Assembly (NCBI RefSeq): GCF_037975245.1
Contig: NC_092562.1
Span: 10,269,001-10,333,000, forward strand
Direction of reading: 5' to 3'
Origin: Apostichopus japonicus
Taxonomy: Eukaryota; Echinodermata; Holothuroidea; Aspidochirotida; Stichopodidae
DNA length: 64,000 nucleotides
The translations under genes and the position numbers were made by a program. Numbering within the stretch: the first letter of the stretch is position 1; each line of letters starts with the position of its first letter. The notes beneath the pieces were generated by a model, which saw only the letters and a list, made by a program, of their open reading frames with translations, was not told where the DNA came from and made no database searches. This document shows positions 34 through 62,249 of the stretch, piece by piece.

Positions 34-3000
34 GAAGCTGGTCTCAAGGCAGCTGCTACCTATGGGGTTGGAAGCTGCGGACCAAGGGGCTTCTATGGAA
101 CGATAGGTGAGTCTACTATCACATATATTGAGATGTATGTAGAGGTAAGTCTACTATCACCTATATTTTAAATGTATGTATAGGTAAGTCTACTATCACA
201 CATATTTAGATGTATTATAGGTAAGGCTACTATCACCTATATTTTAAAATGTATGTATAGGTAAGTCTACTATCACATATATTTAGATGTATATATAGGT
301 AAGTCTACTATCAAATATATTTAGATGTATGTTTATGTAGCTCTACTATCACATATATTTAGATGTATTTATAGGTAAGTCTACTATCACATATACTTAG
401 ATGTATTTAAAGGTATGTCTACTATCACAAATATTTAGCTGTATTTATAGGTAAGTCTACTATCACATTTTTTAGATGTATTTATAGGTAAGTCTACTAT
501 CACATATATTTAGATGTATGTATAGCTAGCTCTACTATCACATATATTTAAATGTATGTATAGGTAGCTCTACTATCACATATATTTAGATGTATGTATA
601 GGTAGCTCTACTATCGCATATATTTAGATGTATGTATAGGTAAGTCTACTATCACCTATATTTTAAATGTATGTATAGGTAAGTCTACTATCACACATAT
701 TTAGATGTATTTATAGGTAAGTCTACTATCACATATATTTAAATGTATGTATAGGTAGCTCTACTATCACATATATTTAGATGTATGTATAGGTAAGTCT
801 ACTATCACCTATATTTTAAATGTATGTATAGGTAAGTCTACTATCACACATATTTAGATGTATTTATAGGTAAGTCTACTATCACTTATATTTTAAATGT
901 ATGTATAGGTAAGTCTACTATCACATATATTTAGATTTATTTATAGGTAAGTCTTCTATCACATATATTTTGATGTATTTATAGGTAAGTCTGCTATCAC
1001 ATATATTTAGATGTGTTTATAGGTAAGTCTACTATCACATTTTTTTAGATGTATTTATAGGTAAGTCTACTATCACATATATTTAGATGTATGTATAGCT
1101 AGCTCTACTATCACATATATTTAAATGTATGTATAGGTAAGTCTACTATCACCTATATTTTAAATGTATGTATAGGTAAGTCTACTATCACACATATTTA
1201 GATGTATTTATAGGTAAGTCTACTATCACCTATATTTTAAATGTATGTATAGGTAAGTCTACTATCACATATATTTAGATTTATTTATAGGTAAGTCTTC
1301 TATCACATATATTTTGATGTATTTATAGGTAAGTCTACTATCACATATATTTAGATGTATTTATAGGTAAGTCTACTATCACCTATATTTTAAATGTATG
1401 TATAGGTAAGTCTACTATCACATATATTTAGATTTATTTTTAGGTAAGTCTTCTATCACATATATTTTGATGTATTTATAGGTAAGTCTGCTATCACATA
1501 TAGTTAGATGCATGTATAGGTAAGTCTACTATCACATATATTTAGATTTATTTTTAGGTAAGTCTTCTATCACATATATTTTGATGTATTTATAGGTAAG
1601 TCTGCTATCACATATAGTTAGATGCATGTATAGGTAAGTCTACTATCACATATATTTAGATGTGTTTATAGGTAAGTCTACTATCACATATATTTAGATG
1701 TATTTATAGGTAAGTCTACTATCACATATTTAGATGTATTTATAGGTAGCTCTACTATCACATTTATTTAGATATATGTATATAGGTCAGTCTATCACAT
1801 ATATTTAGATGATGGTGTAGGTAAGTCTACTATCACATATACTTAGATGTAGTATAGGTAAGTCTACTATCACATGTATTTAGATGTGTTTATAGGTAAG
1901 TCTACTGGGATAATATATTAGTAAGTCTAACATCACATCCTTTCATAAAAATAGATCAGTGAGCCATCCCAGACATCTGTATCTAAGTAAGTCTACCATT
2001 TCATACATTAACAAATACTTTAAATGTCTACCATCAAATACATAATTCGATAGGTAAGTTTCTCAACACAAAGTCTAGTCCAGTAAGTTAATCTACCCAT
2101 CACATAATGTAAGGAGGGCAGGAGATATTAAGTTAACTCTACCATAACATATGCAATTCACTAGGTAAGCCTACCATCATATGCATGCTTCAGTATTAAA
2201 GTAAGTCTGTTATAACACTTGTGTATTTACAGTTACTTCTACTGCCTCCCCCCCTCCCACAAAAATTAGAAGAAGCAAAAGTAAATATGTCATTAAAAAT
2301 GTCTGCAACCACATTCAATATCCAGATAATGCAGTTGTAAGTGTATCTATTACAGTATGCATCCATACTGTTTTCATATACCTTGCATGCCGCATTCAAT
2401 ATCTAAATTTGTTTCCTCTTTGCAGATGTTCATTTATTCTTAGAGGAGAAATTGGCTCAGTTCTTTGGTGTCGAGCAGGCCATTCTATACTCGTATGGGT
2501 TTTCAACAGTTGCCAGTGCCATACCGGCCTATGCCAAGAGGGGTGACATCATTTATTGGTATGTCTGTAACAAACATTTTTCTACTGACAAGATATTCTT
2601 TTCTTTGCCTTGCCTTTGTTTACTAAGCCAAGTCAGTTAATTATGATCATTATTTTTGGGTTCATAAGCCATCAGTCAAATGAATTTGATTCGATCTGCA
2701 ACATTTCATTGCCAGGACACATTCCGTAACAATTGTGAACGGCATCCAAAGATTGAATGGGAAATTTTCATCAATTTTGATTTTAAATTCATTTTTTGAA
2801 AATGGAACATCTTTAATTCAGCATAACGCATTGCTTCTCAGAATTGTTACAAACATTTTCAAATATTAGTAATCTGTACATCATCTCTAGGTGCCAAGCA
2901 AACCATTTAACAGAGATAAAGGTTTCTGATAAAACATGGAAGATAAGTCGGTAACATATTATTGATCGTGTTTGATGATAGAAATATTGTGGCCCAGATA

Positions 3001-3464
3001 TTAGAATTAATCACAAGCAAAGTGGATATCTCCAAATAGTCAACTTTTTCGAGATGCTGCTTTAATTCAAATGCAGGTTGTAGATTCAGGATTTGATAGG
3101 GGGAAGATCGAAGGGAGGGTTGGGAGTGGCCAAGGCTTTGTTGAAGCAGATTTCCAAGCCTCCCATGGATGGATTTTGGATATCAAACAGGTGCACACTA
3201 TTCTAAGAGATCTTTAAACTTAGCTTAAAGTGCTATGTGCTGCTAGTAATGATAAATCTTCTATGTGAGGTAAAACAAAAGGGGCGGGGGGGGGGGGTGT
3301 CCCCCTTGTATATGTGCCTGAAAAAGTGACTGTACAAGTTAATATACTTTATTATTGACTGAAAAGTATATATATATATATCTATAAAATGAAAATCGTA
3401 ATGAGTTGGAAAATCAAGAACAGTGAAAAAACTTCCAGCCTCCACAGGGATTCAAACCCAGGCC

Positions 3465-3496
<32 letters not shown>

Positions 3497-6400
3497 CACA
3501 CACACACTAATAAACTATCAAATAGATACCTCCCTCTAGTTACAGACCTCAAGATGACCTATGGTGTGTGAAAGGTAATGTTGTTTCGTTCACTCTGATC
3601 TTGTTGCAAGTCACCACCTCAAGTCTCATCTCATATTACTGTACGTACCATGCCGCCTGTACACGGTTACGTATATTATAGGTATCGTTGGTATCCAGGT
3701 TTTATCATTGATATCAAGTGACACTTCACATTAAAATTTAGATGAACTTTTTTCGAGAGATCAGATACAGACCTGAAATGATATATAAACCCTGGGGTTT
3801 TGTAGTGACCTCATAACTGTAGAGACTAAATATTCTTACACCCTCTGCAATAATTAGTGAAAACTACAAATTTCCATGAATATTCTCATGATTTTTCAAA
3901 CCTACTGTGTTGGCGGCTGTTATGTAACGAGGGAGCTTCAAAAGTGACGTCAGCCAGCCACGTCGTAAGCTAAACAATTCCCCTCTCTGCATATGAATTG
4001 TACACTCGCTCTGGGAGATTGTTCGGAAGTCGTTGCAAAATGCCGGACTGCCAAGCAGTTGGTTGTGCAAACAGGAGAGGGAAGAGGAAGAAGGATTATG
4101 GAAGGGAAAATTGATATTTTGTTATTCCCGACAGGAAAGGGTTTCCAGAGAAAAGAGAACATACAAAAGTCACAAAGAGCGTACTGCAAATTAGATTTAA
4201 ATGTAACATAAACCCAATCAGTGTTATATGCAAAAGTTTTCAACTTTGATGAAAAAATTAGTGTACAGTACAAATTGTAAATAATGGACTCAAGTTTGCC
4301 TGCAAAGAAGCCCAAAACTGGCTTGTTTCCTCAGGAGACAGGTTGCTTATTGTCGCTTCAAATAAAAATTTAAATTTAACTGCTCATATTTTCATACATG
4401 ATTAACAATGCCATGCTACATGGTATTGCATAAACACAATATGAACGGATTATTTTTAACAAATTTGCTCTGCGGGTGGTTCTGAAGCTGTTCAAATGAT
4501 AGACCGGTCAACGGGTGCCACCATAGTCCTTCCATACCACATTTGAGCGATACTCTCAGTAATGAGTTTCTGAGTGATGGATGCAAGCCTTGAGGCTCGT
4601 ATTGGGCTTTTAGTTTTATTTTACATGAGAGAGTCTGTCTTTGGTTGTAGTTCTGTTTGAGGTTAAAAGAAACCTGTATGATTGTATGATCGAGAGGGTT
4701 GTGGTCAAGTGGTTAAGGCAGTGGACTTGTGATCTAAGGATTGCAAGTTCGAGTCCTGGCCAGATCATTACGTTGTGTCCTTGGGCAAGGCACTTTATCT
4801 CTATTGCCTCTCTTCACCCAGGTGTATAACTTGGGACCTGTGATTCTGTGAGATAAATTGTCAGCTGGGCGCTGTTTAGCTGCTGCCATGTGGAGGGAAT
4901 GTCTCTTTGTTTGACCGAGGTAATATTGTGAGGTACCTTGAGCACCGATATTGGTGGATATGTCTGCGCTTCATAAATCCACAGTATTATTATTATTATT
5001 ATTAATAATATGTTTCTTTGTCACCTCCTCCCCCCTCCTCTTCAGTGATGAAGGGGTGAGCTTTCCTATCCAGATGGGTCTTCTAGCATCTCGCAGCAAG
5101 CTCAAATTCTTCAAGCAAAACGACATGGACGATCTCCAACGACTCTTGGAGGATCAAGAAAGTCTAGACAAGAAGGTGAGATGTAACAGAGGAAAGGAAA
5201 TGAAAAGAAAAGACAAAGCCCACAAAAAACAGAAAAGAAGGAGAAAATTGATTAAAATAGTAATGTTGTTTTTAAGTTGAAGAGGATTAAGCAAAAAGTG
5301 TTAATAGTGAAGAGGATGATCTCCAAACAAATTTGTTTTTTATATTATGCCAAATGACCACTAGTATGTGGGATCAAGGGGTAGGATTTTGAGCCATAGG
5401 CTAACATTTCTACAATATGAGATATTTTACAGTGCCAGGAAAGTAAAGACCTAGATTGCTGATTGGACAGTTTGGGGACATGTGTGTCTGGGGTATTAAG
5501 GATTTCAAGGTAGGGTCAAAGTTGGGGGAATGGATGCAGGCTTTTGTGTCAAAACTGAAAAAAAAAAATCAATATTATCATTGGCCACTATTTTCTTTAA
5601 GTTTTAAAAAATTATCGTCGCTATGTTTACAGAATATCATTATTGTCTGACGGCCAGTTGTGACAAGTTTGGAAGGTAAAGAAAACGACTTGCCCCCTCT
5701 ATCAGTTCATGTCACATCGTTTTGTAACAATTTTGCCGTCCATTTCTTTCAATCTATCATCGACAGAACCCGAAAAAGGCTAAAGTGACAAGGAAGTTTC
5801 TGGTGGTCGAAGGCCTGTACGGTAACTATGGCACCATCGTTCCGATTGCGAAACTAGTAAGTCAAATTTCTGTTTTCAGTACTATCGGTTGTGGTTATCA
5901 GTACTTGTTACTGCAGTATGGAGTATTTTACAAGGAGTCTTTGTTGTTAATGGAGACCCAAAGTAGTACCATAAATCTGCGAACTCACTTCGCTAATGAC
6001 AGACTTATTTCCGAAACAAAACCTCTGGTTTGCAAACCATAACATCATAAATTACCTATATGTGATAGAGGTGGTAAGTTAGTAACTGTCATGTACAACT
6101 TACCCCAAACAGCTAAGGAAAATCTTACTCCACTTGGGAGATTTAATGTTCTTTCACATGCAAGGAATTGATCAAGTCTAAATATGACATCATCCAGCCA
6201 CATGTGCTTCAATGCTTCTTTCTTTTTCTTGATTCTTTTTACATTGTCTATTTTCTATCATGGCGATTGGGTTTTGCTAATACTATGTCTACAAATATTG
6301 AAATTGATGACATTATGATAATGATGACATTGGTTTTAGGGTCGAAGCTGTCAACATTCCATCCTGAAAAATATGAAAAGAGAAACAAAAACAAAGAACA

Positions 6401-9400
6401 ATGTTTCAGATCCCAGCGGATCACAGGTTTACAAAGTGACAGCTTTCAGACAGGACCTTAAAACTAGAATATCTCCCATCCGGCACATATTTTGTTTTGT
6501 TTTAGCTGTTGAAGGTTAAGTAGTTCTTCACAAAGATTTTTGTCATATAAGTTATATATAAAATTTTAGATCTCATGGCTTAGAAATTTAGTTTGGGGAA
6601 ATACATGGGCGTCTGCAGAAATAAAATCAGGGGACAAATAATCCAAGTAGACTTTTGTATACCATGGGTCTGGGGTCCTCTCCCAGAAAACAATTATAGA
6701 CTGCCGCAAATGGGATTTCCGTCCAATATTTAACAACTGTGGATAAATATAATAAAATGAGAACTGCTGTATTTCATTTGCACAACACTGGATCAAACTG
6801 CAGGGGAATTTGAAATGCAGCGTTTGGTCAAGACAAATTGGTGGGGACACGGTATATCATATCCCCACCACTGAAAAAATTGGTGGGGACGCGTCCCGCT
6901 GTCCCCACCAGGATCTGCGCCCATGCCAGTGTTAGTAGCTTTGATACAGTTGATTGGTGTAATTATTGCACCAGTTGAGAAGCAGTTAGGATTAAGTTCA
7001 CAGTAGTTGTCATATTTGTTAGTATTCAAAATAAAGTTTGTATTCAAACTTTGTTAGTAGTCGAAGGACAAAAAAGAGAAAATATAAACATTTTAATGTT
7101 CTGGAACAAATGCTTATGGAAACTTTAAATCTTAATTTAAATATCTTAAATAATCATTAATTTAATCTTAAATATCTTATATTATATAAATATAATTTAA
7201 ACCTTAATATACTTATACAAGAAACAAGTTACATCATACATGATTGATAGAATGAGAAGATAATTTTCAAGGCCTCAAGCTATTTATTGGTTCTGCTGTT
7301 ATCGGAATCTAACTTTATGTTAAGATAAAATTTAGTTTATTCTCTGTGTTTTTCAGATTATCAAGGTCTGCTGGGATCTACCTTTATGTAAAGATAAAAT
7401 TGGAGAGTACTTTTCTGCATTCTCTGATTCCAGAATTGAAGTTTAAAACTTAAAATTGTCTCTAAAATTACATTGTTCCACTTGATTCATCCTTCATGAT
7501 TGATCATGATGAATATTCATTGCCAGTGTATCTACCTCAAACGTCACTTTCATGTATGTACTCATGTTTCTTTTCAGATCGAATTCAAGTACAAATACAA
7601 AGTTCGCATTTTTATGGACGAAAGCTACTCCTTTGGAGTCCTGGGAGCGACAGGTCGTGGTGTCACAGAATATGCTAACGTGAAGGTTCGTATAGGGAGT
7701 ATCAGTGTAGGGAGTATCGTTTAGGGAGTATCAGTGTAGGGAGTATCGTTTAGGGAGTATCAGTGTAGGGAGTATCAATGAGGGAGTATCAGTGTAGGGA
7801 GTATCAATGAGGGAGTATCAGTGTAGGGAGTATCGTTTAGGGAGTATCAGTTTAGGGAGTATCAATGAGGGAGTATCAGTGTAGGGAGTATCAATGAGGG
7901 AGTATCAGTGTAGGGAGTATCAGTGTAGGGAGTATCAATGAGGGAGTATCAGTGTAAGGAGTATCAGTGTAGGGAGTATCAGTGTAGGGAGAATCAATGA
8001 GGGAGTATCAGTGTAGGGAGTATCAATGAGGGAGTATCAGTGTAGGGAGTATCAATGAGGGAGTATCCGTGTAGGGAGTACCAATGAGGGAGTATCAGTG
8101 TAGGGAGTATCGTTTGGGAGTATCAGTGATTTTCAATGCGAGTGTTGATCCATTTGTGAGTGGATCAGGAAATCGGTAGTGTGAACCCAACAATGCAGGC
8201 CAGTGTCAAAACATTCCATTTTAATGGAGCAAGTTGATCGCATATTCAAACAATTGCCTGTATATTAGAATATTTAAATGAGGGTAAACAACCAACGTAC
8301 TCTGAGTAATAAATGTGATGCTGGTGAATTTCACAAAACAGAATCTTCACCATATTTGTATGGTCTTGTTTGTTGTTATATGGATTTAGCTTAAAAAAGT
8401 GGAAGTTGTGGTACAAACAAAACCCATGTTTCATTTAACTTTGTAGAGCGTTGTGGTCAAGTGGTCCAGGCAGTCTAAGAATTGCAAGTTCCAATCCTGG
8501 TCATATCATTATATTGTGTACTTGGGCCAGGCACTTTATATCCATTGCCTCTCTGCACCCTGGTGTATAAATGGGGACTCGGAAGGTGACTTGTAAACAT
8601 AGTGGAGTGCGCCCTGTGGGAAGTCCCCCAGAGGACATGTGGATTTTGTGTGCTGTAGTACCCCAGGAGGGTTTGTTTGAATTGTACACACTATGGTGTG
8701 TGTGTGTGTGTGACAAGTTACCAATGACCAGGAGTTAAGTGTTGTAAAGTAGTGTGTTGGGGGGGGGGTGGGGGTGCCTGGCCTCAAACAAGACTGTAAA
8801 CCTTCAACTTAAACTTTTACTTAAAAAGAGGTAACCATGCTGCATATCAGGGAAGGTATCAATTTGATTAATGGAGAATTGAAAAACTTGTTAACATTGA
8901 ATCAAATTCAGCAAATCCAAAGTTTGGGATCAGTAAAAAAAAAAAAAACCCAAAACCCAGACTTATCTGCAATGAGACTGTGGTAAGCCTCTGTTAAGTG
9001 CTGATATCTGCTTTTCGTTAAGTTGCAAACTTTCCTCACATTATTAAACATATGTTGTTATGCTAATGCAGCCAGCTGAAAATATATATTCTTCATTTGC
9101 AAGTACTGTATGCAGGGAACAATTGATTCAGTCTTGCACTGCAACAATGCTACACGAAAAGATCAATTTGCTATGCGAGTGCAAAGATTCATAGCAGTTT
9201 CTTGTTAAAAACAGGAACCATAGTATCTTATGAGCCTGGACAACATTCAGAACCTTCTGAACTGCTACACAAAATTTGAAAAACTAAATCATTCCCTTTA
9301 CATCTATACTTTGTGAGTGTTGCCATAATATGACCAACATCATCTGCTGTAAAGTACTACTGGAATGAATATGAAATGCACTGAATTGTTTTGTGAAATT

Positions 9401-12400
9401 CCAAGTCTCTTCAGATTATTTTGTTTGTTTGTATGTATTTGGGTGTGTGTGCGTAAATTTATATCTGCATATATGTAACAATTAGGTAGCTTTGTCATTA
9501 ATTGGCGTTTTTAATCTTACAGATTGAAGATGTTGATCTAATTACCATTTCCATGGAGATGGCGCTAGGCACCATGGGAGGATTCTGTCTGGGTACACAG
9601 TATGTCATTGATCATCAGGTGAGCTCAGTTTATTTAGCTATTGGTTATCTAAAAGTTGAAGTATAATGTTTCTATAGCCAATGCTGTTTACTTTGAAGTT
9701 GTTCCTGTTTGATGTGTATCCTACAGCACGTTGTCGGCTATTCTACAGATATTGTTGGCTATTTTACAGGATGTTGATGACTTTTCTACAGATATTGTTG
9801 GCTATTCTATAGCACATGGTTGGCTATTCTACAGATGTTTTTGGCTATTCTACAGATGGTTTTGGCTATTCTACAGATGTTTTTGGCTATTCTACAGATG
9901 TTGTTGGCTATTCTACAGATGTTGTTGGCTATTCTACAGATGTTGTTGGCTATTCTACAGCACATTGTTGGCTATTTGCTATTTTACATCATGTTGTTGG
10001 CTGTTTGCTAATTTACATCATGTTGTTGGCTATTCTACAGGATGTTCTTGACAATATACAGCATGGTGTTGGCTACTCTATGGCATGTTGTTGGCTATTC
10101 TACAACATGTTGTTGGCTATTCTACATCATATTTCTTAGCATATAAGAAATACAATAGTATCTTGTTACCTACACTACATGATGTTATATAATCTACAGT
10201 TTCTTGTTACCTATTCTACAGCACATTGATACCTATATATTAGCACATCGTAGACTACTTCTCATCATAGTGTTACCAGTATACTACACTATCTTGTTAC
10301 CTATTCTACATGATCTTGTTACCTATTCTACGTTATCTTGTTGCCTATCCTACATTATCTTGTTACCTATCCTACATTATTTTTTTACCTATCTTGTTAC
10401 CTATTCTTCACTATCTTGTTACCTATCCTACATTATATATTTACCTATCCTTACATTATGGTTTACCATAACCTACATTATCTTTTTACCTATTCTTCAC
10501 TATCTTGTTACTTATCCTACACTAACTATTTACCTATCCTTACATTATGGTTTAGCATATCCTACATTATCTTCTTACATATTCTACAGTATCTTGTTAC
10601 CTATCCTACATTATTTTTTACCTATCTTTTGACCTATTCTTCACTATCTTGTCCCTATCCTACATTATCTATTTACCTATCCATACATTAGGCTTTTGAC
10701 TATCATACATCATATTGTAAACCTATGTCACAGCACATTGGTACCTGTTTGTCAGCATGTTAGCTATTATACAGTACACTGTTTCTTACCCTGCAGTATG
10801 TTGTTACTTATTCTACAGTTTGTTGCTACCTATTTTTACAGCAAACTGTAACTTTTCCAAATCTGTTATGAACCTTGTATTATAACCTCTTCTGAATCAC
10901 ATTGCTTAGAATATTGAAAGTGAGAGTAGATTTACACTACCTAAATAAATGTAACATTTGCCAGATTTAAAGGGTGTGCAGACTCGCGCAAAAAGAAACG
11001 TCTAATGCCGGTAATCTGACCTAGTTTTGAATGAGGTGTAACAGAAGTGTTAGACACCACCATCGATCCCAGAAAATTCACACACAGCTTGCTACCATCG
11101 GTAATTAGACACTAGTGTACAGTCAATACATACAGCTACGGTCAATACCCACAACACAGTGTATATAGCAGCGATGGACATCTCAGGTCTAGATAAAAGA
11201 TAACAAGGTATCATGTTTCATTACTGTCTGCATTTTGTAGCAACAAGAAGAAAATGTCATTTGCAAGCAACGGAAAGTTAACTTTTTCAGTGCGCGGCAC
11301 GCGGTTTGGGGCGAGTCTTCAATGCCTTTTAATGTATGTTTTGTGCATTTCTTTCAGAGTCTCTGTGGACTGGGCTACTGTTTCTCAGCCTCACTGCCTC
11401 CTCTGTTAGCCTCAGCTGCCCACGCTGCTATAGACTGTCTGGAAGAGGACCCCGGCATGTGTGAACGTCTTCGCAATAAAGCCAGCTATGTTCATGAAAA
11501 ACTGAATCAGTAAGAAGCAAGATGGCAGATTTATTATTTAGTCTGTTTGTGTCAGGGATCTATATTAAAGGCTGGTTTGGTCATTTTTTCGTTTCCTTCT
11601 TAGACAAAGATGCATCAAATGTTATTCTTGATTTCAAGTGATTTAAGTCTGATAGCTGATAGCTAATGTCACTGGTATCTTGAGGGCATGTGTAAATTTT
11701 GTTTCATTTGAAATGATTCTGTGTAGGATTTTGCATAATATTTCCACATAACCATTCTTCACATAACAATTTTTCAACATTGTGAAGTTAATTCATCATT
11801 GCATATATGATAATTATGTCATTGACCTAAAATAGAGAAACATATATTTGGATGTTGGAGTAACTTAAGCAGAATTCTCTTTTCTTTTTTTTTTTTTGGG
11901 GGGGGGAGAGGGGAAATTGGTTGCATACTTGGTAGAAAGAGAAAGTTGGATAATAGAGAAGTTGTTGTATCCTTTTCCCATCTTTGGAGTGAGGGGGGGG
12001 GGGGGGAGGACAGGGGAGGTGGAGTACTCCAGAAAGAGGTACATCTCATCACTTCATTCCAGGTGGTTTACACTGTGTCATTATCTGTCTGTGTGCCTGT
12101 AAACCCAACCCCTGTGCAACCTATACATGGCCATTTGCATGGCTGGTTTTTGCACTGTCCTGAACGTGTTTTGCGGTGCAAATATCCATGATCATTACTA
12201 TGCGACATAGTTGGACATTGTTTACGCCAAACGTGACAAGGATTTTGACTCTACTGACAGATATGACACCCATTCCATTGAGTAAGGAGTAACGAGTTTT
12301 GTGAACTCATGCAAAATTTAGATATTCATTTAATAGACATGTGACAGAGTAGCAACATTGACAGAAATTACAATATTCTCAAAAGAAGAGGCTGATTGAA

Positions 12401-15072
12401 CTGGGGATAATATCAAGCAGAATTAGAAGAGAGACCAGGTTAACTCTCTTTTCCCCCATTTAATAGTACAGCTTGCCTTAGTTGCTCTGTGTCTGACCTT
12501 GTCTGACCTTGTCTGTCTTTTCTGTGGGTTTAAATCTAAAGCTCTCCCACTGGTTTTTCATCAGGATTGATGGTATTACAGTCTCTGGCGCCCTCATATC
12601 GCCTGTGAAGCACGTTAGATTAGCGGAGTCTATCGGTGACATTGAGTCGGATAAGAATCTATTGCAGAGCGTGGTAGATAAGGTAAGTAAGGGAGGTTAT
12701 CATCTCATTAATATTGTGTCAAATTGTACAACCATCTTTGACTCCTGACAAAAACTATGGGCATGTCTTGGTCAAAAGACCACTTACAATTGATGGTAAG
12801 TCTTAACAATTCATGGCAATAAGAATCCTGTTCTTCATTTGCAAAACCAGGCCAGACTTATTTAATTTACTCTGAAAGCGCTAGAGGCATAATAAACCAA
12901 TTATTAGTGAAGGTTGTTTTTTAAAAATAACAGAATTTACTAAATTGTCTTTAACAGCATCTTGTTATATTAATGCAAGAAACCTAGTATAAGTAAAAGA
13001 AAGCAAGCTTGTGTGAAGAGGACTGCTACAGTACCTTGATCATGTATACAAAGGAAAGTCTTGCCTATGTATACCGGTTTAATATCAGAGCGGTATAACT
13101 TAAACTGCATTGCCACCTTGATCATGTATACAAAGGAAAGTCTTGCCTATGTACACCTGTTAAATATGAGAGCGGTATAACTTAGACTGCATTGCCACCT
13201 TGATCATGTATACAAAGGGAAGTCTTGCCTATGTATACCGGTTTAATATCAGAGCGGTATAACTTAGACTTCATTGCCACCTTGATCATGTATACAAAGG
13301 AAAGTCTTGCCTATGTACACCTGTTTAATATAATAGCGGTATAACTTAGCCTGCATTGCCATCTTTATTATATAAACAAAGGGAAGTCTTGTCAATGTAC
13401 ACCTGTTTAATATGAGAGCGGTATAACTTAGCCTGCATTGTCACCTTGATCATATGTACAAAGGGAAGTCTTGCCTATGTACACTTGTTTAATATAATAG
13501 CGGTATAACTTAGCCTGCATTGCCATCTTTATTATATAAACAAAGGGAAGTCTTGCCTATGCACACCTGTTTAATATGAGAGCGGTATAACTTAGCCTGC
13601 ATTGTCACCTTGATCATATGTACAAAGGGAAGTCTTGCCTATGTACACTTGTTTAATATAATAGCGGTATAACTTAGCCTGCATTGCCATCTTTATTATA
13701 TAAACAAAGGGAAGTCTTGCCAATGTACACCTGTTTAATATGAGAGCGGTATAACTTGGCCTTATCTTTTCTCACAACGTTACAGGCTCTCGACCGAGGG
13801 TTGGTTTTATCCGTTGCTAAGTACTTAGAGGATGAGGAATCTTTTCTTCCACCGCCGAGGTAGGTCTAATATCTCTGCTCTCTTTTAATCATAATTTAAG
13901 CCAAATTTGATACAATCAATCAGTGTTTTAGGTGATGAAGATTCATTATGGATTGAGATTAAATGGTTGAAATCAAACTTGTTTGGAGGGTTTCCTTTCA
14001 TATCCATTTTTTATGTACGTTGTCTCAAATCACCGACAATGTGGTTCCCTTAAGCAGAGGTGAGGGTCAATTAGTGTGAAATTACTTTTTTTTGGAAGGC
14101 CAAGGGAGGGGGAAAAGACCTCAAGAATTTAGGGTCCTCAATAAATGTAAAACAGACAGTACAGTGAATGATTAAATGTATCAATGTGGTCTTTATTTTT
14201 TTAATGGAATGTTATGAATGACCGAGTGGACTGGTTTGGTAGACATCCACATGCTGGACAAGTGGAGAGATAATGGGTTGGTTAGGGGAAGGAAGGGGAA
14301 GGTAGGGGGTGGAAATTGAAGGTCGGAGGACGGAGAGGGGAAGGTATGGGGAGGGGGGGGGGAGAGAGAAGGAGAAGGAAGGTAGGGGAGGAAGAAGGAA
14401 GGTTGGGGAGTAAGAGGGAAGGTGGGGGAGTGAGAAGGGTCAGTAGGGGGAGGGAGAGGTAGGAGAAGGGAGAGGGGAAGGTATTGGGAAGGGAGGTAGG
14501 GGAGGGAAAGGGAAGGTGGGTGGAGTGAGAAGGGGAGGGAGAGGGAGAGGGAGAGGGAAGAAGAGGGGAGGGAGAGGGAAAGGTATGAGAAAGGGGAGGA
14601 GAAGGTAGGGGGTGGGAGATGGAAGGTCGGGGGATGGGAAGGTAGGGGGATGGAGAAAGGTAGGAGAGGGAAAGAGAAGGTCAAGGGAGGAGTGGAAAAA
14701 GGGAAGGGAGGGGCTTGGAGGGGAGAGGGAGGAAAAGACGGAGTGGTAGAGGAGGAAGTATGTCTTCTTTCACTGTCTTAATGGTATTTTCTGTTTCATC
14801 AGTAAAAGAAAATTTACAACCTTCGCCTTTACGTAATGCTATAGAGGTGCTTGCTATAAGTGAATACTTCAAGCATATCAAAATCCCCAAATCACCCACA
14901 CGGAATACGATTTATGTGATCTGTTTGGGGTAGTTGTTCATGTTGGTTGTTTCTCTCTTTAACTTTCAGCATCAGGGTGACAGTGAATACTGAATTAACT
15001 GAAGAAATGCTGGACAAAGGAGTGTCCATCTTGAAAGATTTACTAGAGGAAGCTACACAAGCAAGTAGTTAA
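34..15072 (+). CDS. SPTLC1: Serine palmitoyltransferase subunit 1 (partial, last ten coding exons)
   Basis: This is the regulatory, non-catalytic subunit of serine palmitoyltransferase, the ER enzyme that joins serine and palmitoyl-CoA in the first step of sphingolipid synthesis; it pairs with SPTLC2/3. Coding exons, all phase-compatible: 34-106, 2426-2558, 5046-5175, 5767-5856, 7578-7685, 9523-9618, 11358-11509, 12565-12682, 13786-13859, 14970-15072 (TAA). They encode 358 residues, matching human SPTLC1 from about residue 118 to the end; earlier exons lie outside the window. Visible family motifs are [13 protein letters not shown] (its Cys codon at 76-78 corresponds to human C133, mutated in HSAN1), [46 protein letters not shown] and [14 protein letters not shown]. 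The fold is the alpha-oxoamine synthase type, whose catalytic PLP lysine is supplied by the partner subunit. The donor after 7685 is weak (AAG|GTTCGT); AAC|GTGAAG at 7679/7680 is an alternative that would drop two residues. Confidence 0.96.
107..2220 (+). repeat. Minisatellite of about 38 bp seeded at the SPTLC1 splice donor
   Basis: A tandem array fills most of the first visible SPTLC1 intron. Units of about 37-38 bp read roughly AGGTAAGTCTACTATCAC followed by an AT-rich ATATTTAGATGTATTTAT part. Units are close to one another from 107 to about 1900 (about 47 copies) and degenerate to about 2220. The real exon/intron junction (GATAG|GTGAGTCTACTATCAC) matches the start of the unit almost exactly, so the array begins at the splice donor and most units contain an AG|GTAAGT donor-like sequence. 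Variant forms (GTATGTATAG against ATTTATAG, CACCTATATTTTAA against CACATATATTTAGA) recur in order, which suggests higher-order amplification. Confidence 0.95.
2559..4039. other. SPTLC1 intron sequence with simple repeats, no gene seen
   Basis: This is the first part of the 2559-5045 intron. I see no coding segment. It contains a G-run near 3283-3297 and TA/CA dinucleotide tracts near 3367-3382 and 3463-3506. A short segment near 3440-3460 read on the minus strand resembles a Pol III box B (GGTTTGAATCCC) and could be a worn SINE fragment, but no matching box A was found. Confidence 0.5.
4040..4138 (+). pseudogene. THAP-domain remnant with an internal stop
   Basis: Starting at the ATG at 4040, the frame reads [18 protein letters not shown], then DYGREN, a TGA stop at 4112-4114, then YFVIPDRKG. 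This is the pattern of the first half of a THAP (C2CH) zinc-binding DNA-binding domain: M-P-x-C, then GC-x-NR, then an aromatic-x-IP block. THAP domains occur in P-element transposases and in host proteins derived from them. The rest of the domain (the later Cys-x-x-His pair) was not found downstream, so this is a broken first exon or a truncated copy inside an SPTLC1 intron. A perfect TGACGTCA CRE-type site lies 88 bp upstream (3945-3952), which would fit a promoter end of a former gene or transposon. The identification rests on motif spacing only. Confidence 0.5.
4690..5008 (+). mobile_element. tRNA-derived SINE, copy 1
   Basis: The head resembles a tRNA with internal Pol III promoter elements: a box A-like TGGTCAAGTGGTTAAGG and a box B-like AGTTCGAGTCCTGG about 40 bp further on. 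A tRNA-unrelated body follows (TTGGGCAAGGCACTTTATC and onward) and the element ends in an (ATT)n tail at about 4988-5008. It sits in the SPTLC1 intron, and its tail ends about 37 bp before the acceptor of the exon starting at 5046. A second copy is at 8449. A clear target duplication was not found. Confidence 0.85.
5176..7577. other. SPTLC1 introns around the short exon 5767-5856
   Basis: Apart from the exon at 5767-5856 and the repeat fragment near 6600-6930, no coding or RNA feature was recognised. The stretch 7080-7210 is very AT-rich with TTTAAAT and AATATCTTA palindromic pieces. Open frames here (for example 5785-6042, which extends the exon through its donor) are intron read-through. 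Confidence 0.5.
6609..6934. repeat. Dispersed DNA-transposon-like fragment (CATGGGCG ends)
   Basis: The left edge reads CATGGGCGTCTGCAG and the right edge, on the opposite strand, CATGGGCGCAGATCC, giving short inverted ends. The right part contains GGTGGGGAC-type blocks and GGGGACGCGTCCC-like sequence that recur in the hAT element at 40714-42561. No matching 8-bp target duplication is visible at the flanks, so the limits and class are uncertain; a worn hAT derivative is the likeliest reading. Confidence 0.4.
7688..8131 (+). repeat. Minisatellite of 14-15 bp next to the SPTLC1 donor
   Basis: About 30 tandem units alternate between GGGAGTATCAGTGTA (15 bp) and GGGAGTATCAATGA (14 bp), with a GGGAGTATCGTTTA variant. 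The array begins within 10 bp of the splice donor that follows the exon 7578-7685. Unlike the array at 107, the unit does not itself contain a consensus donor. Confidence 0.95.
8449..8640 (+). mobile_element. tRNA-derived SINE, copy 2 (divergent)
   Basis: The same architecture as the SINE at 4690: TTGTGGTCAAGTGG box A region, a box B-like AGTTCCAATCCTGG, then TTGGGCCAGGCACTTTAT and TGCCTCTCTGCACCC. It lacks about 14 bp between the boxes and the box B carries substitutions, so it is probably inactive. The 3' end is not sharply defined. Confidence 0.75.
8641..9522. other. SPTLC1 intron, nothing recognised
   Basis: Holds a short TG tract near 8695-8712, a G-run near 8759 and an A-run at about 8935. 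No exon, RNA gene or bounded repeat was recognised before the exon at 9523. Confidence 0.5.
9733..10138 (+). repeat. Minisatellite of 21 bp with acceptor-like units
   Basis: About 19 tandem units of GTTGTTGGCTATTCTACAGA type fill the start of the SPTLC1 intron after 9618. Most units contain TATTCTACAG, which resembles a 3' splice site. Open frames across the array in all three frames are products of the repeat period (a multiple of three) and are not genes. Confidence 0.93.
10150..10870 (+). repeat. Minisatellite of about 22 bp
   Basis: A second array directly follows the one at 9733. Units of about 22 bp read CTTGTTACCTATCC plus TACATTAT, with about 24 recognisable copies to 10700 and degenerate copies to about 10870. 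It shares the TTxCTATTCTACA-like core with the upstream array, so the two may have a common origin. Confidence 0.9.
10971..11328 (+). mobile_element. TTAA-flanked MITE, copy 1
   Basis: The element is bounded by TTAA at 10967-10970 and 11329-11332. The left end reads AGGGTGTGCAGACTCGCGC and the right end GCGAGTCTTCAATGCCT, imperfect terminal inverted repeats. Its body contains ATCGATCCCAGAAAA and GATGGACATCTCAGGTC. Three further copies lie at 52422, 58277 and 59026. A TTAA target duplication is the hallmark of piggyBac-class transposition, so this is most likely a piggyBac-type MITE; it has no coding capacity. Confidence 0.85.
12683..13032. other. SPTLC1 intron, nothing recognised
   Basis: Unique-looking AT-rich intron sequence between the exon ending at 12682 and the 82-bp repeat array. 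Confidence 0.5.
13033..13757 (+). repeat. 82-bp tandem repeat with a higher-order pattern
   Basis: About nine units start with ACCTTGATCATGTATACAAA and continue through AGTCTTGCCTATGTA and AGAGCGGTATAACTTA. The first copies begin at about 13033, 13115 and 13197. From about 13360 two variants alternate (TTGATCATATGTAC and TTTATTATATAAAC), giving a dimer of about 165 bp. The array ends about 28 bp before the acceptor of the exon 13786-13859. Confidence 0.9.
14240..14760 (+). repeat. Polypurine (G/A-rich) tract in the last SPTLC1 intron
   Basis: About 500 bp are almost entirely G and A on the plus strand, in irregular GGGAAGGTAGGGG-type units. The long open frames on either strand are composition artefacts. 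Such tracts can form triplex or G-quadruplex structures. Confidence 0.9.
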
Positions 15073-57194: not shown

Positions 57195-60100
57195 CTAAAC
57201 TAGAAGATCAATATATTGACTTACTTGAAAGAAAACATGCGCCAGATTTCTTAACCGTCTATCTTCTGATTCAGAGAAAGCTGCTATTTTGGAGAGCGTC
57301 TCAGAAGAACATATTTCTGTAAGAAAGCAAAACGTAAGTCTTTCTTTCAAACGTTCAAAACTCCCTGCAAGTATAGGAAACAGCGAAAAAATCCTGAATT
57401 TCACACACAAACACATGCATGCACCCTGGTGATACAGAGAAATTTCACCGAACAGAATAACTAGAGAGTAATCCCTTGCCACATTTAAGGTATATGAAAA
57501 CATTGACTGTGCACAGAGAGTTGCTACACTTAATAAGCTGGCTCCACATGACAAAGTGTGAGGTTCATCCAAGTTTTTACTTTGGAGCTAAACTTGTGAT
57601 TACAAGGTGTGACTACAGTGATTACAAACTTTCACATTTCTTGACCTGACATTACAGTTTGAGTACCCGAGATGGATCCACATATCACAGTACTTCCATG
57701 CTATGTTTGAGTTTTTCACGTTTACAAGATTGTCAGACTTTGACCTCTGTTGACCTCAAATGACCTTTGTCCTCCACAGAAACCCACAGGATCCATGTAC
57801 TCCATAATATCCATCCAGTTATCACGTACGAAGTTCATTCCAGCTTCACTACGTGAGTTATCATGTTTAAAAGGTTTTTCAGACTCTTTTGACCTCAAAT
57901 GACCTTGACCTCTGCAGTAAACAACAGGATTCTGGCAGACAGTAATTGTGTATCCATAAAATACTGGTGTTCATCAGCATAGTGTAAAGCTCGTTTGGTT
58001 ATAGGTTGGCATTGTACCCATCCCAAGTAGAAAACATTAGTGATAAACAAAGGGATACAAAACATTTCTTGCCAATGTGCATGAAATTACATCACACCTG
58101 ATCATTTCAGCTCCACTTCTGGTACAAAAAGGTATAAACCTCGAATGAACATATCACGAAAAGCAGCACGTAGGAATTGAGTGGAAACTTCACCGGCAAA
58201 GTCAAAGCTGCAAGGAAAATTTTCTACTGGACTATAAAGGTCGGTGTGAGTTCCTTACAAATTTCAGTTTGCTTAAAGGCATTGAAGTTTCGCCCCCAAA
58301 CCGCATGCCGCGCTCTGAAAAAGTTAACTTTCCCTTGCTTGCAAGTGAAGTTTTCTGCTTGTCGCTACAAAATGCAGACAGTAATGAAACGTGATACCTT
58401 GTTATCTTTAGCTGGACCTGAGATGTACATCGCTGTACCGTTTGTACACTGTGCTGTGGGTATTGACTTCAGCTGTATGTACTGACTGTACACTAGTGTC
58501 TAATTACCAAAGGTAGCAAGCTGTGTGCGTATTTTTCTGGGATCGATAGTGGTGTCTAACACTTCTGTTACACTTCATTCGAAACTATAGGTCAGATTAC
58601 CGGCATTGGACGTTTCTTTTTGCGCGAGTCTTCACACCCCTTAATAGTGATTATCATATCACACCCACCTCCTCCCCTGGGGATACAATAGCAGAAATTT
58701 CTGACTCACCTTTCTTCGATGATGGCGTCATCAGAAACATAAGACATGTAATTGCTGACAACACCGTTTCTGGAGTTTTGCTGTTTAAAGAAAAACACGG
58801 AAGAAAGTCAAACCAGTTGACATAGCAACAGCTAACATCATAGGCCATCCATGTACAATCTTTCCAATGGTTTAGAAATTTGTTAGAAAAAAATTTGATT
58901 TGACGTAATTTTGAGTTAATAATCAAGAAACGAATCCTACTAATCTGGTAAAAAGAAAGAAGTAAACACCACCCCAAATATGCTGTGACATTGTAATTAG
59001 CAGTCACATCCAAATTGATACTTAAAGGCATTGAAGACTCGCCCCACACCGTGTGCTGCCATCTGAAAAAGTTAACTTTTCTGTTGCTTGCAAGTGACGT
59101 TTTGTTTGTGTCGCTACAAAATGCAGACAGTTATGAAACATACCTTGATATCTTTAGGTGGACCTGAGATGTCCATCGCTGTATCGTTTTTACACTGTGC
59201 TGTGGGTATTGACCGCAGCTGTATGTACTGACTGTACACTAGCGTCTAATTACCGACGGTAGCAAGCTGTGTGTGTATTTTCTGGGATCGATGGTGGTGT
59301 CTAACACTTCTGTTTAACCTCATTCGAAACTAGGTCAGATTACCGGCATTAGACGTTTCTTTTTGCGTCTTCACACCCTTTAACCTAATACAGTCCCTAC
59401 TCAATTATTTGGTGAGTAATACTTTTGTCAAGTGCTTGTCTTTATATTACTTCCAGGATCATATAAAAGACCCCCAGCCATTCCAACCCTCCCTTTACTA
59501 TCTACATTCATTACCCCCATTACTAATTACCTGCCAATGTTACACCCCTCAGAGTTTTTTCTCCACAGCCCTTTTTTTGATGTTGCTCTATTCATTGGTT
59601 CAGTTGTTCAATTTATCTATCTGTCCATCTGTGTCTATTAACATATTCTTAGTTTTTTATCGTTTCCAGTAAGCCTATGAAGAAGATCCTGCTAGGATGA
59701 AAACATCACACCCTCTAGCTTTACATAAACAGAGACAGCAAACATTAACAGCATTATGTTTTAAGTATAGTCGATGTACCCACTATGACACGGTACCCTT
59801 TCGTGACACACTTTCTGAAATTTCATGATTTGACCATAGCGATGGAAAGTAATTTAAACAATGATGTAAATTTGCCAAAGCTGTGTCCAAATCATCATCA
59901 TCAATTAACTTCTTTTGTGCAATAGCTAACTTACATTTGTAAGACCGTTTGATGCTTGTGTCTAATATAAAGAATGAAGAAATCTCCATAAATTATTCTA
60001 TCCAGAACTTTCTTATTGTTCTTGTAGTATTTGCATTTAAAACAAAGTAGAGTAGCTGTAAATTCACTTAAGGTCATCTAAAAGAATTCAATGTGCATTC

Positions 60101-62249
60101 CATTTTTGTTTATGTAGACTGTGCCACAGTAAGTACAGCTACAGTAACGTCATTACTGAAACTACTGCTACAGAGATTTCACAAGAAATTTGTCAAATTT
60201 TGTTCAAATTCCATAAAATGTACATCTGCAAGTTTGTTAAAACATTACCAAAAGCAAGATACGTAGAAATTAAGAGAAATTTGTTCGACAGTAAGTAAAA
60301 TTTGTCTTAAGTGTGTCACAACTGAATCCACCATCCTGAAACTTTTTTTCCCCATTGTATTTCTTACATACATGTTGTATTTCTTACATACATGTTGTAT
60401 TTCTTACATACATGTTGTATATCTTACACACATGTTGTATTTCTTACATACATGTTGTATTTCTTACAAACATGTTGTATTTCTTACAAACATGTTGTAT
60501 TTCTTACATACATGTTGTATTTTTTACATACAGTACATGTTGTATTTCTTACATACAGTACATGTTGTATTTCTTACATACAGTACATGTTGTATTTCTT
60601 ACATACAGTACATGTTGTATTTCTTACATACATGTTGTATATCTTACATACATGTTATATTTCTTACATACATGTTGTATTTCCTATATACATGTTGTGT
60701 TTTTTACATACATGTTGTATTGCTTATATACATGTTGTATTTCTTACATACATGTTGTATTTCTTACATACATGTTGTATTTCCTATATACATGTTGTAT
60801 TTCTTACACACATGTTGTATTTCTTACCTCAATAAGCACTGCTGAACTTGGCCAACGCCATCATTCTCATTGATGTATGACTTTAACTCTTTATCTATAT
60901 CAAAAGAGGACAAAACAGAACTGGCAGTTTTACTACATTTTCTAAATTCATATTATTAAATCATTCCTACAAGGCAACATTGGTTTGATGAAATTTGGTA
61001 TCAAAACTGATAAGGCTAAGGCTACATAGAGATGACAATTCTTTGCTACTGAAGACAGAAAGAGAGAGAGAGGTGGAGAGAGAGAGATGGATAGAGATAT
61101 TGAAAGGAGGATGGGGAGGAAGGCTGGGGGCCTGCAGGGTATGTCAACAGACTCAAAGAGCACCACAGAAACGTTGATTTAATACTCACCCAAGGCCAGG
61201 TTACAAAGCCCAGATACTCCAAACTCTACAAGTTTGTCATCATCCTCTGTTAACATGTCTAGTCAAAAAAGAAAACAAAAACGTGGAATCTGATTGTTTT
61301 AATAGCCTAAATGAAAAAATAATATTTAGTTGTACATTGATTCAAAGCTAATCAGTCCAATTTCTGTACTACAAGGCATGTACTGAAATGTCAGACAGGG
61401 TTTCAAACTTCTCTTTTGAACTGGTTCTTATTCCTTCTATGCCTGGATCATGCCAATTAAAAACCCAGAGTATCAAACGCTCTCTCTTATATCCCAGAAA
61501 AATTATTACACTGTGCATTCAGAGCAGTTATTCATTTCACAAACATTTATTGTACTTGTCTAAAATCTGACCAACTTTACCAAAATCTGAGACTACTATT
61601 CGCGAGTTCCTGCTTGCGGGAAGATCACATATACATACATACATACTATTAAGGGTAGGTATCCTCAATAAATTAATAATAATAATAAATTACACTTATA
61701 TAGCTCTTAATACAGCGTTTCAAAGTATTAATGTATTTTCACAAAACTTACCAAGAAATAAGTCTGCCACATTTAACCGCCGAAGATTATCAAAGTTCAT
61801 TGGGTCGTAGGCAAAGTTTCCCAAGTTAGCCAATACCTCCTGTTTGCAAACTACAAAGCAGAAAATAAATAAATAAATAAATAAATAAAAATAAATAAAT
61901 AAAGGAGAAAAAGAAGGAGACTTTAATGTGATGTCGTAATTTTCACTTGTTAGTGAGAGATGAAGGGCCATACCGTTGTTGCTACTGTAGGCCATTTACT
62001 GCATGATACAAAGCTTTGCCTAGAGCTGGAAGCTTACAGGATAACAACAGCCAAGTAGATATGTAGAGACACTTCTGACTGCGATATATATGCAAAAAAT
62101 GTCAATCTACAGGCATGACTAAATAAGATAAATTGTTTACCTTTACTGTCAGTTGTTTGAAATTCGGTAACAAGTTGTTGAAGGTAGGCAAGTCTATCTA
62201 AAGATCCTCTAGGGGTACGCCTCTTCATTTCTTCCTCCGTTTGAAACAT
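57195..62249 (-). CDS. ARMC7: Armadillo repeat-containing protein 7
   Basis: A small armadillo-repeat protein; the human one has been reported with spliceosomal components, but its role is little defined. Minus-strand coding exons: 62249-62141, 61850-61752, 61258-61190, 60894-60828, 58780-58710, 57316-57195 (TAG). Phases agree and give 178 residues (human 198). Matches to the human protein include [72 protein letters not shown] and [11 protein letters not shown]. The last exon contains a good internal donor (CAA|GTAAGTC at 57225/57224); if used, the protein would continue in an unseen exon, which could explain the short C-terminus. A donor-like CAG|GTAAGAATT at 63418/63417 suggests an upstream noncoding exon. 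Confidence 0.9.
57640..57960. repeat. Dispersed repeat with clustered TGACCT half-sites
   Basis: TGACCT occurs at 57741, 57751 and 57761 (perfect 10-bp period), and again at 57890, 57900 and 57906. The segment shows two related halves and resembles the repeat at 44400-44650. It lies in the last ARMC7 intron. Confidence 0.55.
58277..58640 (-). mobile_element. TTAA-flanked MITE, copy 3 (inverted)
   Basis: TTAA at 58273-58276 and 58641-58644. Ends AGGCATTGAAGTTTCGC and GCGCGAGTCTTCACACCCC are the family ends in reverse orientation. Located in an ARMC7 intron. The open frame 58177-58485 overlaps it and is not supported as a gene. Confidence 0.87.
59026..59379 (-). mobile_element. TTAA-flanked MITE, copy 4 (inverted)
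   Basis: TTAA at 59022-59025 and 59380-59383. Ends AGGCATTGAAGACTCGCC and TGCGTCTTCACACCCT. Lies about 385 bp from copy 3 in the same orientation. Confidence 0.87.
59384..60357. other. ARMC7 intron, nothing firmly recognised
   Basis: A segment at about 59680-59700 (GAAGAAGATCCTGCTAGGAT) resembles one at about 62717-62737 (GAAGATGTTGCTAGGATC), suggesting a worn dispersed repeat, but boundaries were not found. Confidence 0.4.
60358..60827 (-). repeat. 20-bp minisatellite seeded at an ARMC7 splice donor
   Basis: On the minus strand, about 23 units of GTAAGAAATACAACATGTAT start exactly at the donor of the ARMC7 exon 60894-60828 (TTGAG|GTAAGAAATACAACATG). The first 17 intron bases are identical to the repeat unit, and most units contain GTAAGAA. 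Some units carry a CAGTA insertion (60531-60610). Long open frames in all three frames are repeat artefacts. Confidence 0.95.
61599..61646 (+). repeat. Left arm of a dispersed inverted repeat
   Basis: TTCGCGAGTTCCTGCTTGCG, then GGAAGATCACATATACATAC; its reverse complement is at 62861-62912. The arms flank ARMC7 coding exons 1 and 2. Confidence 0.85.
61861..61902. repeat. (TAAA)n microsatellite
   Basis: About ten AAATA/TAAA units just upstream, in transcription direction, of the ARMC7 exon 61850-61752 acceptor; the tract lies within 15-50 bp of the acceptor. Confidence 0.9.

Follow-up and report, generated by a model that had tools for sequence, protein, structure and literature searches.

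The closest known system to the locus described here, and the precedent for its layout, is intron 7 of the human factor VII gene (F7), which contains several 37-bp repeats and has its true 5' splice site within the first of them (PMC6627357, citing Borensztajn 2006). The most upstream of these repeated 5' splice sites is the only one reported to be used (PMC6627357). Splice sites residing in repeats are also found among the dual-specific splice sites in tandem repeats of UBC and other genes, for which 792 human introns in 262 tandem repeats are reported (PMC10809524). For potato RdRp, the gain of an intron through a tandem duplication that crosses an intron-exon boundary has been described, according to the AGGT model (PMC4974935), and direct repeats have been reported near intron borders (PMC11782384). 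In the available portion of a study on intron repeats of earthworm metallothionein genes, no link to a donor is seen (PMC12783039). A literature search based on titles and abstract beginnings found no donor-spanning minisatellite class, which is weak evidence of absence as subscription papers were thinly covered.

The window, i.e. the whole stretch of 64,000 nucleotides analysed here (G000:C2:10269001-10333000), belongs to a genome of 671.6 Mb in 35 contigs and contains an ARMC7 intron which, like F7 intron 7, carries an array inside the intron with the true 5' splice site in the first unit. The features of this locus are as follows (the slash marks the splice junction):

61190..61258, minus strand: preceding ARMC7 exon, 23 residues, included in the protein match to human ARMC7
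60828..60894, minus strand: ARMC7 coding exon with acceptor TATAG at 60899-60895 and donor at 60827; its last bases ..TTATTGAG adjoin the array
58781..60827, minus strand: ARMC7 intron, 2047 bp, with donor AG/GTAAGA at 60827 and acceptor TTTAAACAG/C at 58781
60355..60827, minus strand: 20-bp minisatellite of 23 units, covering the first 473 bp of the ARMC7 intron (TRF and unit split)
58710..58780, minus strand: next ARMC7 exon, 24 residues, included in the protein match to human ARMC7

TRF describes the array at 60355-60827 with a period of 20, 22.6 copies and 89% matches, and the unit split on the minus strand yields 23 units which begin with GTAAGAAATACAACATG or a variant and have the sequence GTAAGAAATACAACATGTAT or a variant thereof. 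Four units are 25 bp long owing to a 5-bp insertion, three start with ATA instead of GTA, and the final unit is incomplete. The first intron base (60827 on the minus strand) is at the same time the start of unit 1, directly following the exon end ...TTATTGAG at 60828. Spliced across 60827-58781, ARMC7 gives a gap-free alignment with human ARMC7 (PDB 7dvq_K, E 9e-27); hence, it is the first donor that makes the conserved protein, and read-through beyond this donor immediately leads to a TAA. A Pfam search with the joined ARMC7 piece (the query carrying three extra residues) gave no armadillo match. TRF, unit split and exon match thus bear out the claim of an earlier note on this DNA that the ARMC7 intron opens with a 20-bp array of approximately 23 units, the first of which includes the 5' splice site. 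A family shared with the ARMC7 array was rejected, the respective search having returned the array itself and four weak matches with 67-73% identity, one of which is an AT-rich array (L002).

The comparison with F7 concerns the layout and not the repeat sequence, as F7 has a 37-bp unit in one human gene, whereas 20-bp units in ARMC7, 38-bp units in SPTLC1 and arrays in several more genes are found here. Moreover, use of only the most upstream donor has been reported for F7; in ARMC7, it is the first donor that gives the conserved protein. Of the donor, the ARMC7 unit includes just the intronic part, and the bases preceding GTAAG in the inner units are TAT, TGT or TTT, resulting in weaker predicted U1 pairing: -9.6 kcal/mol are obtained for the true donor compared to -4.3 kcal/mol for 16 of 21 inner ones and even weaker values for the other five. 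Comparable downstream donors of the F7 type are a feature of SPTLC1 (36 of 48, see below), while ARMC7 retains GTAAG in most of its units though U1 pairing is weak. With the dual-specific repeats, junction arrays (arrays whose unit spans an exon-intron junction) share a repeat unit with AG/GT splice sites that has spread by repeat expansion. In dual-specific repeats, however, a single site serves both as donor and as acceptor, and introns are multiples of the unit, whereas here the array follows the true donor within one intron; in ARMC7, the inner units carry no AG before GT, and 2047 bp is not a multiple of 20.

Applying a TRF score of at least 100, a period of at least 10 and at least three copies, nine arrays were obtained in the window, and three of them begin at donors. 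Besides ARMC7, these are found in SPTLC1, for which the following features were assigned:

34..106, plus strand: SPTLC1 exon; joined to the next exon it matches SPTLC1 in PDB (E 3e-26), and its last four bases ATAG lie within the array unit
103..1906, plus strand: SPTLC1 38-bp minisatellite, 47 copies, the first unit spanning the donor at 107 (ATAG/GTGAGT)
7578..7685, plus strand: SPTLC1 exon, 36 residues; three joined exons match Pfam Aminotran_1_2 (E 1e-10)
7686..8129, plus strand: SPTLC1 29/15-bp minisatellite beginning at donor AAG/GTTCGT (TRF start 7688)
13033..13762, plus strand: 82-bp array in SPTLC1 (TRF), ending 23 bp before the acceptor at 13785; comparison case at an acceptor

Decayed donor units of the first SPTLC1 array (103-1906) extend to approximately 2165, so that the array makes up most of the intron (107-2425). 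In the earlier note, this array had been given the same architecture as the one in ARMC7, which holds insofar as the first unit contains the 5' splice site in both; the ARMC7 unit is intronic only, however, whereas the SPTLC1 array begins four exon bases upstream of the junction. Predicted U1 pairing of 36 of the 48 inner SPTLC1 donors is about equal to that of the true one (-10.5 to -10.7 vs. -10.6 kcal/mol, i.e. within 0.1 kcal/mol or better). Hence, strength cannot choose between these donors and position would have to decide. For the third array, previously noticed at 7688 as lying near a donor, the start indeed coincides with a later donor of SPTLC1, at 7686; the last 24 residues of the exon 7578..7685 alone gave no Pfam match. 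As to further arrays in this gene, the 82-bp array at 13033-13762 ends as if branch point and pyrimidine tract had halted it. Additionally, two neighbouring decayed arrays (approximately 21/43 bp and 22/44 bp) are located at 9717-10710 within a single SPTLC1 intron, the first of which consists of acceptor-like units CTATTCTACAG, for which no link to a true acceptor was established.

Outside the window, exons were assigned on the basis of open frames, splice signals and Pfam. In the genome, 628 matches (386 + 242) to three GGTAAGT words spaced by 15-40 bp were obtained. By eye, the first 99 were assigned to 14 array loci, which are located on C1, C2 and, as far as 17.2 Mb, C3; 13 of these lie outside the window and were examined, the fourteenth being SPTLC1. 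For AGGTGAGT, 512 matches (223 + 289) were obtained and approximately 100 of these were grouped by eye into nine loci. Among the matches listed, eight of the 14 GGTAAGT loci (SPTLC1 and the first seven below) and four of the nine AGGTGAGT loci (L054, L059, L060 and L062) are junction arrays:

L036: firm junction array, TIL exon (Pfam E 1e-9)
L038: firm junction array, based on an open frame only
L042: firm junction array, VWC-type exon (E 2e-4 to 2e-3, below family cut-offs)
L043: firm junction array, Glyco_transf_21 (E 1e-10, alignment 3-56 of 59)
L044: firm junction array, tyrosine phosphatase (E 6e-10, alignment residues 3-50 of 50)
L045: firm junction array, based on an open frame only
L047: firm junction array, TLD (E 4e-4, below cut-off)
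L046: weak case, possible first exon ATGGCGGATGAAAG, unit with 3 exon bp
L054: firm junction array, Yju2 (E 3e-12, alignment residues 1-44 of 44)
L059: firm junction array, based on an open frame only
L060: firm junction array, SPT16 (E 7e-23, alignment 1-75 of 76)
L062: firm junction array, M18 peptidase (E 3e-16, alignment 1-38 of 38)

With SPTLC1 of the window included, 12 firm cases and one weak case result from 23 donor-word arrays among the matches listed; outside the window, these are 11 firm and one weak of 22 examined. An automatic ORF-plus-donor criterion, applied to 22 unselected arrays (37 minus 15 with a donor word), yielded seven candidate donor sites at six arrays, several of them plainly non-exonic, and therefore cases were judged by eye and by Pfam. 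L041 and L048, the three loci L037, L039 and L040 forming one dispersed 18-bp family, as well as L055, L056, L057, L058 and L061 were judged not to be junction arrays. At L037, L039 and L040 (all on C1), an 18-bp AATGGTAAGTATATGGAC array together with common flanks constitutes a dispersed element with its own array of donor-like words. In case of L057, the donor GTAAGTTCAGT of a DUF92 exon is found approximately 290 bp ahead of an array with the unit GTGAGTTCAGT, possibly a junction array that was later parted from its donor. In L042, different donor-edge arrays (2806-5295 and 7897-8029) open two introns of what appears to be a single cysteine-rich VWC-type gene, and the former seems to be interrupted and then taken up again by a 47-bp array of related units, as judged by eye.

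Exon bases are part of the unit in each of the 11 firm outside cases (8-35 bp, compared to four in SPTLC1); in L044, TRF sets the start 16 bp past the donor and the eight shared exon bases CATTGTAG were recognized by eye. Several Pfam alignments (Yju2, SPT16, M18 peptidase, tyrosine phosphatase and Glyco_transf_21) extend into the repeated part. Since coding sequence that is conserved throughout a family cannot derive from an array, the exon-intron junction is the template. Array edges are scattered between -35 and +7 relative to the donor, a distribution that random breakpoints would also give, and this, along with exon bases in all firm outside cases, gives the rule that a unit spans the junction, not that it starts at the donor. 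Inner decoys equal to the true donor in predicted U1 pairing occur in several of the other arrays, from few to dozens (47 in the TLD gene L047, 23 in L046), and in others there are none. Extrapolated from the firm cases (eight in approximately 11% of the genome and four in approximately 16%), these counts suggest that arrays of GGTAAGT and AGGTGAGT in the genome are on the order of a hundred.

The origin of these arrays is probably an ordinary tandem duplication across or at the junction, which was tolerated through use of the 5'-most donor and later expanded inside the intron. As the seed, this duplication would be short, either straddling the exon-intron junction or lying directly at it, with the extra copies ending up on the intron side. 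If the spliceosome takes the 5'-most adequate donor beside a defined exon, added donor copies would be silent and the duplication could survive. Minisatellite instability, i.e. unequal exchange and slippage, may then multiply the unit within the intron in presumably neutral growth. A duplication on the acceptor side, in turn, would create an AG ahead of the true one that competes with it, and would be expected to survive less frequently. The ARMC7 unit took the intron side alone, and hence the true donor is there also much the strongest. The duplication reported for potato RdRp likewise crosses a splice boundary, with the exon part becoming intronic, but it is reported as a single duplication on the acceptor side that created a new intron (PMC4974935), whereas here many copies extend an existing intron at its donor.

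The course of growth was followed by the edit distance to the junction unit along the array, for which no significant trend was found in any of 11 arrays. In ARMC7, similarity tends to be lower close to the exon (rho -0.42, p 0.06), the SPTLC1 array at 7686 leans in the opposite direction, towards the model of the earlier note (rho 0.30, p 0.11), and in L043 the most different units are the two farthest from the junction. With no significant gradient, growth looks internal, following one seeding duplication.

Among the alternatives, the one that survives best, though we consider it unlikely, regards 5' splice sites as hot spots of array birth, at which R-loops, U1 binding or slippage duplicate DNA from the donor onward. 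It draws on a crowding of arrays at donors. Assuming 0.2-0.5 donors per kb, uniform placement predicts 0.04-0.09 donor starts for the window, where three of nine were counted post hoc. Outside the window, two of 24 non-donor-word arrays (one of them by eye) are located at a donor edge compared to 0.10-0.25 expected uniformly (p 0.005-0.03), which is approximately 8 to 20 times uniform placement at the same assumed donor density. Tolerance as such does not predict this crowding, and a modest preference for donors is possible. The first of the two cases comes from the control word TGAATGG, the composition-matched, non-donor reversal of GGTAAGT, for which ten arrays were examined, nine of them with flanks (L064 has none and L048:4-135 only one); the donor-edge array is L067, at intron position +7 next to a PDZ-like exon (E 3e-4, below cut-off). 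The other one, L042:7897, was found among 14 non-donor-word arrays in the loci examined, one more being possible (L046:512, approximately +10). The TRF start of L042:7897 is at +27, a decayed unit is visible by eye from approximately +5, and the preceding cysteine-rich exon alone is without Pfam match.

Other results speak against the idea of donors as hot spots. Array edges lie up to 35 bp within exons, there is no significant similarity gradient, and the donor word shows no excess in arrays over its reversal. TGAATGG gave 861 matches (572 + 289), about 100 of which were grouped by eye. In the same stretch, ten TGAATGG minisatellite loci face 14 GGTAAGT array loci (12 if the dispersed family is counted as one), whereby the TGAATGG count sets aside six places in the compared stretch that are microsatellite-like or doubtful or not clearly tandem, as well as later arrays on C3 and C4. 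Outside arrays, single words number 30 for GGTAAGT and 25 for TGAATGG in 186 kb of gene-biased DNA; hence, GGTAAGT is not concentrated in arrays. In the opposite direction, matches of AGGTGAGT exceed those of its reversed word (512 vs. 261), a comparison of matches and not of arrays, in which a few long arrays dominate. At least three of the seven single donor words outside arrays in the window are true donors. The binomial p for 13 of 23 is 0.14 at a true-donor share of 0.43, 0.007 at 0.30 and 0.001 at 0.25. At a share of approximately 40% true donors among the donor words, 13 of 23 is by itself no excess and is expected from seeding at random donor words. Of the recurring process put forward in the earlier note, the architecture does recur (in three of nine window arrays and in the 11 firm and one weak of 22 cases outside), while initiation of growth at 5' splice sites was not upheld in view of the scattered edges, the lack of a significant gradient and the missing excess of GGTAAGT over its reversed word.

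Next in rank, and likewise doubtful, is the possibility that arrays are born anywhere in introns and that their expansion is halted by purifying selection at splice signals. The acceptor side would be constrained by branch point and pyrimidine tract and the donor side by a few bases, so arrays would approach donors more closely than acceptors. Such a limit would agree with L042:7897 (approximately +5 by eye) and L067 (+7), whose units contain no exon bases, and with arrays ending 23 bp (SPTLC1 13033-13762) and 48 bp (L049, in front of the acceptor of a FAM60A exon) before acceptors. It fails, however, for units that hold exon end and donor, as their copying needs the junction as template. Concerning acceptors, a search for the acceptor word TTTTCAG was evaluated for approximately 99 of 1338 matches, mostly belonging to one dispersed family; of six other places, five were examined and the sixth is not a tandem array. 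In these five acceptor-word arrays, no true acceptor was found inside (0/5), compared to 13 of 23 for donors (Fisher p 0.04), though true acceptors may be rare among acceptor-word sites. Together with the arrays ending 48 and 23 bp short of acceptors, this fits the asymmetry between donor and acceptor that is expected from tolerated duplication at the junction, but it is only suggestive, the sample being too small for proof. Separately, TTTTCAGTCCGAAAATGAAATACACG arrays were observed at many loci on C2 and C3, e.g. C2:11040635 (plus strand) and C2:11041276 (minus strand), often as inverted pairs approximately 0.5-3 kb apart, an arrangement that resembles subterminal repeats in a dispersed mobile element. 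TTTGCAGGGCTGCCCTGC repeats represent another dispersed family (C2:13373249, 13508778 and 14313108, C8:36240191, C9:21281361).

It is improbable, too, that the extra donors have been selected in order to strengthen exon definition or to block premature intronic polyadenylation by rows of U1 sites. Many inner donors do match the true one in strength (SPTLC1, L047 and L046, see above), but within the units, donor bases show no higher conservation than the remaining ones: in SPTLC1, changes amount to 22 of 294 in donor columns compared to 40 of 735 elsewhere (p 0.25), and in ARMC7 donor bases are slightly worse kept with 7 of 110 compared to 5 of 264 (Fisher p 0.047, towards decay). The weak U1 pairing of the inner ARMC7 donors (-4.3 kcal/mol or weaker vs. 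-9.6) argues against such selection as well. Coincidence or ascertainment, i.e. common donor-like words, dense exons and a reader who notices matches, could invoke the true donors among single donor words of the window (at least three of seven) but is very improbable in view of the exact +1 start in ARMC7 (chance of approximately 0.0006 for a 473-bp array placed uniformly in the 2047-bp intron), the exon bases in 11 of 11 firm outside units and the several Pfam-confirmed exons. Tandem duplication at the junction, tolerated and later expanded, hence remains the preferred reading, and repeat growth looks like tolerated junk growth and not like a special process.

The class of junction arrays is real, and the point of interest is the recurrence of a layout already known from F7. 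Tentatively, junction-copy minisatellites might represent a recurrent, genome-wide route of intron growth in which introns expand from their own exon-donor boundary, at donors and not at acceptors. A hundred or more genes would then carry ladders of equal-strength donors, up to dozens in number, with position alone to tell them apart, donors perhaps being moderately favoured birth sites. No new mutational mechanism is required for this. If the class holds genome-wide, exon DNA would be turning into intron DNA through tandem duplication, and gene finders as well as RNA aligners would have to be warned that some exons are followed by dozens of equal donors. To our knowledge, choice among identical donors is so far known from one human gene; a class that holds throughout this genome would provide numerous natural experiments on this choice by the spliceosome.
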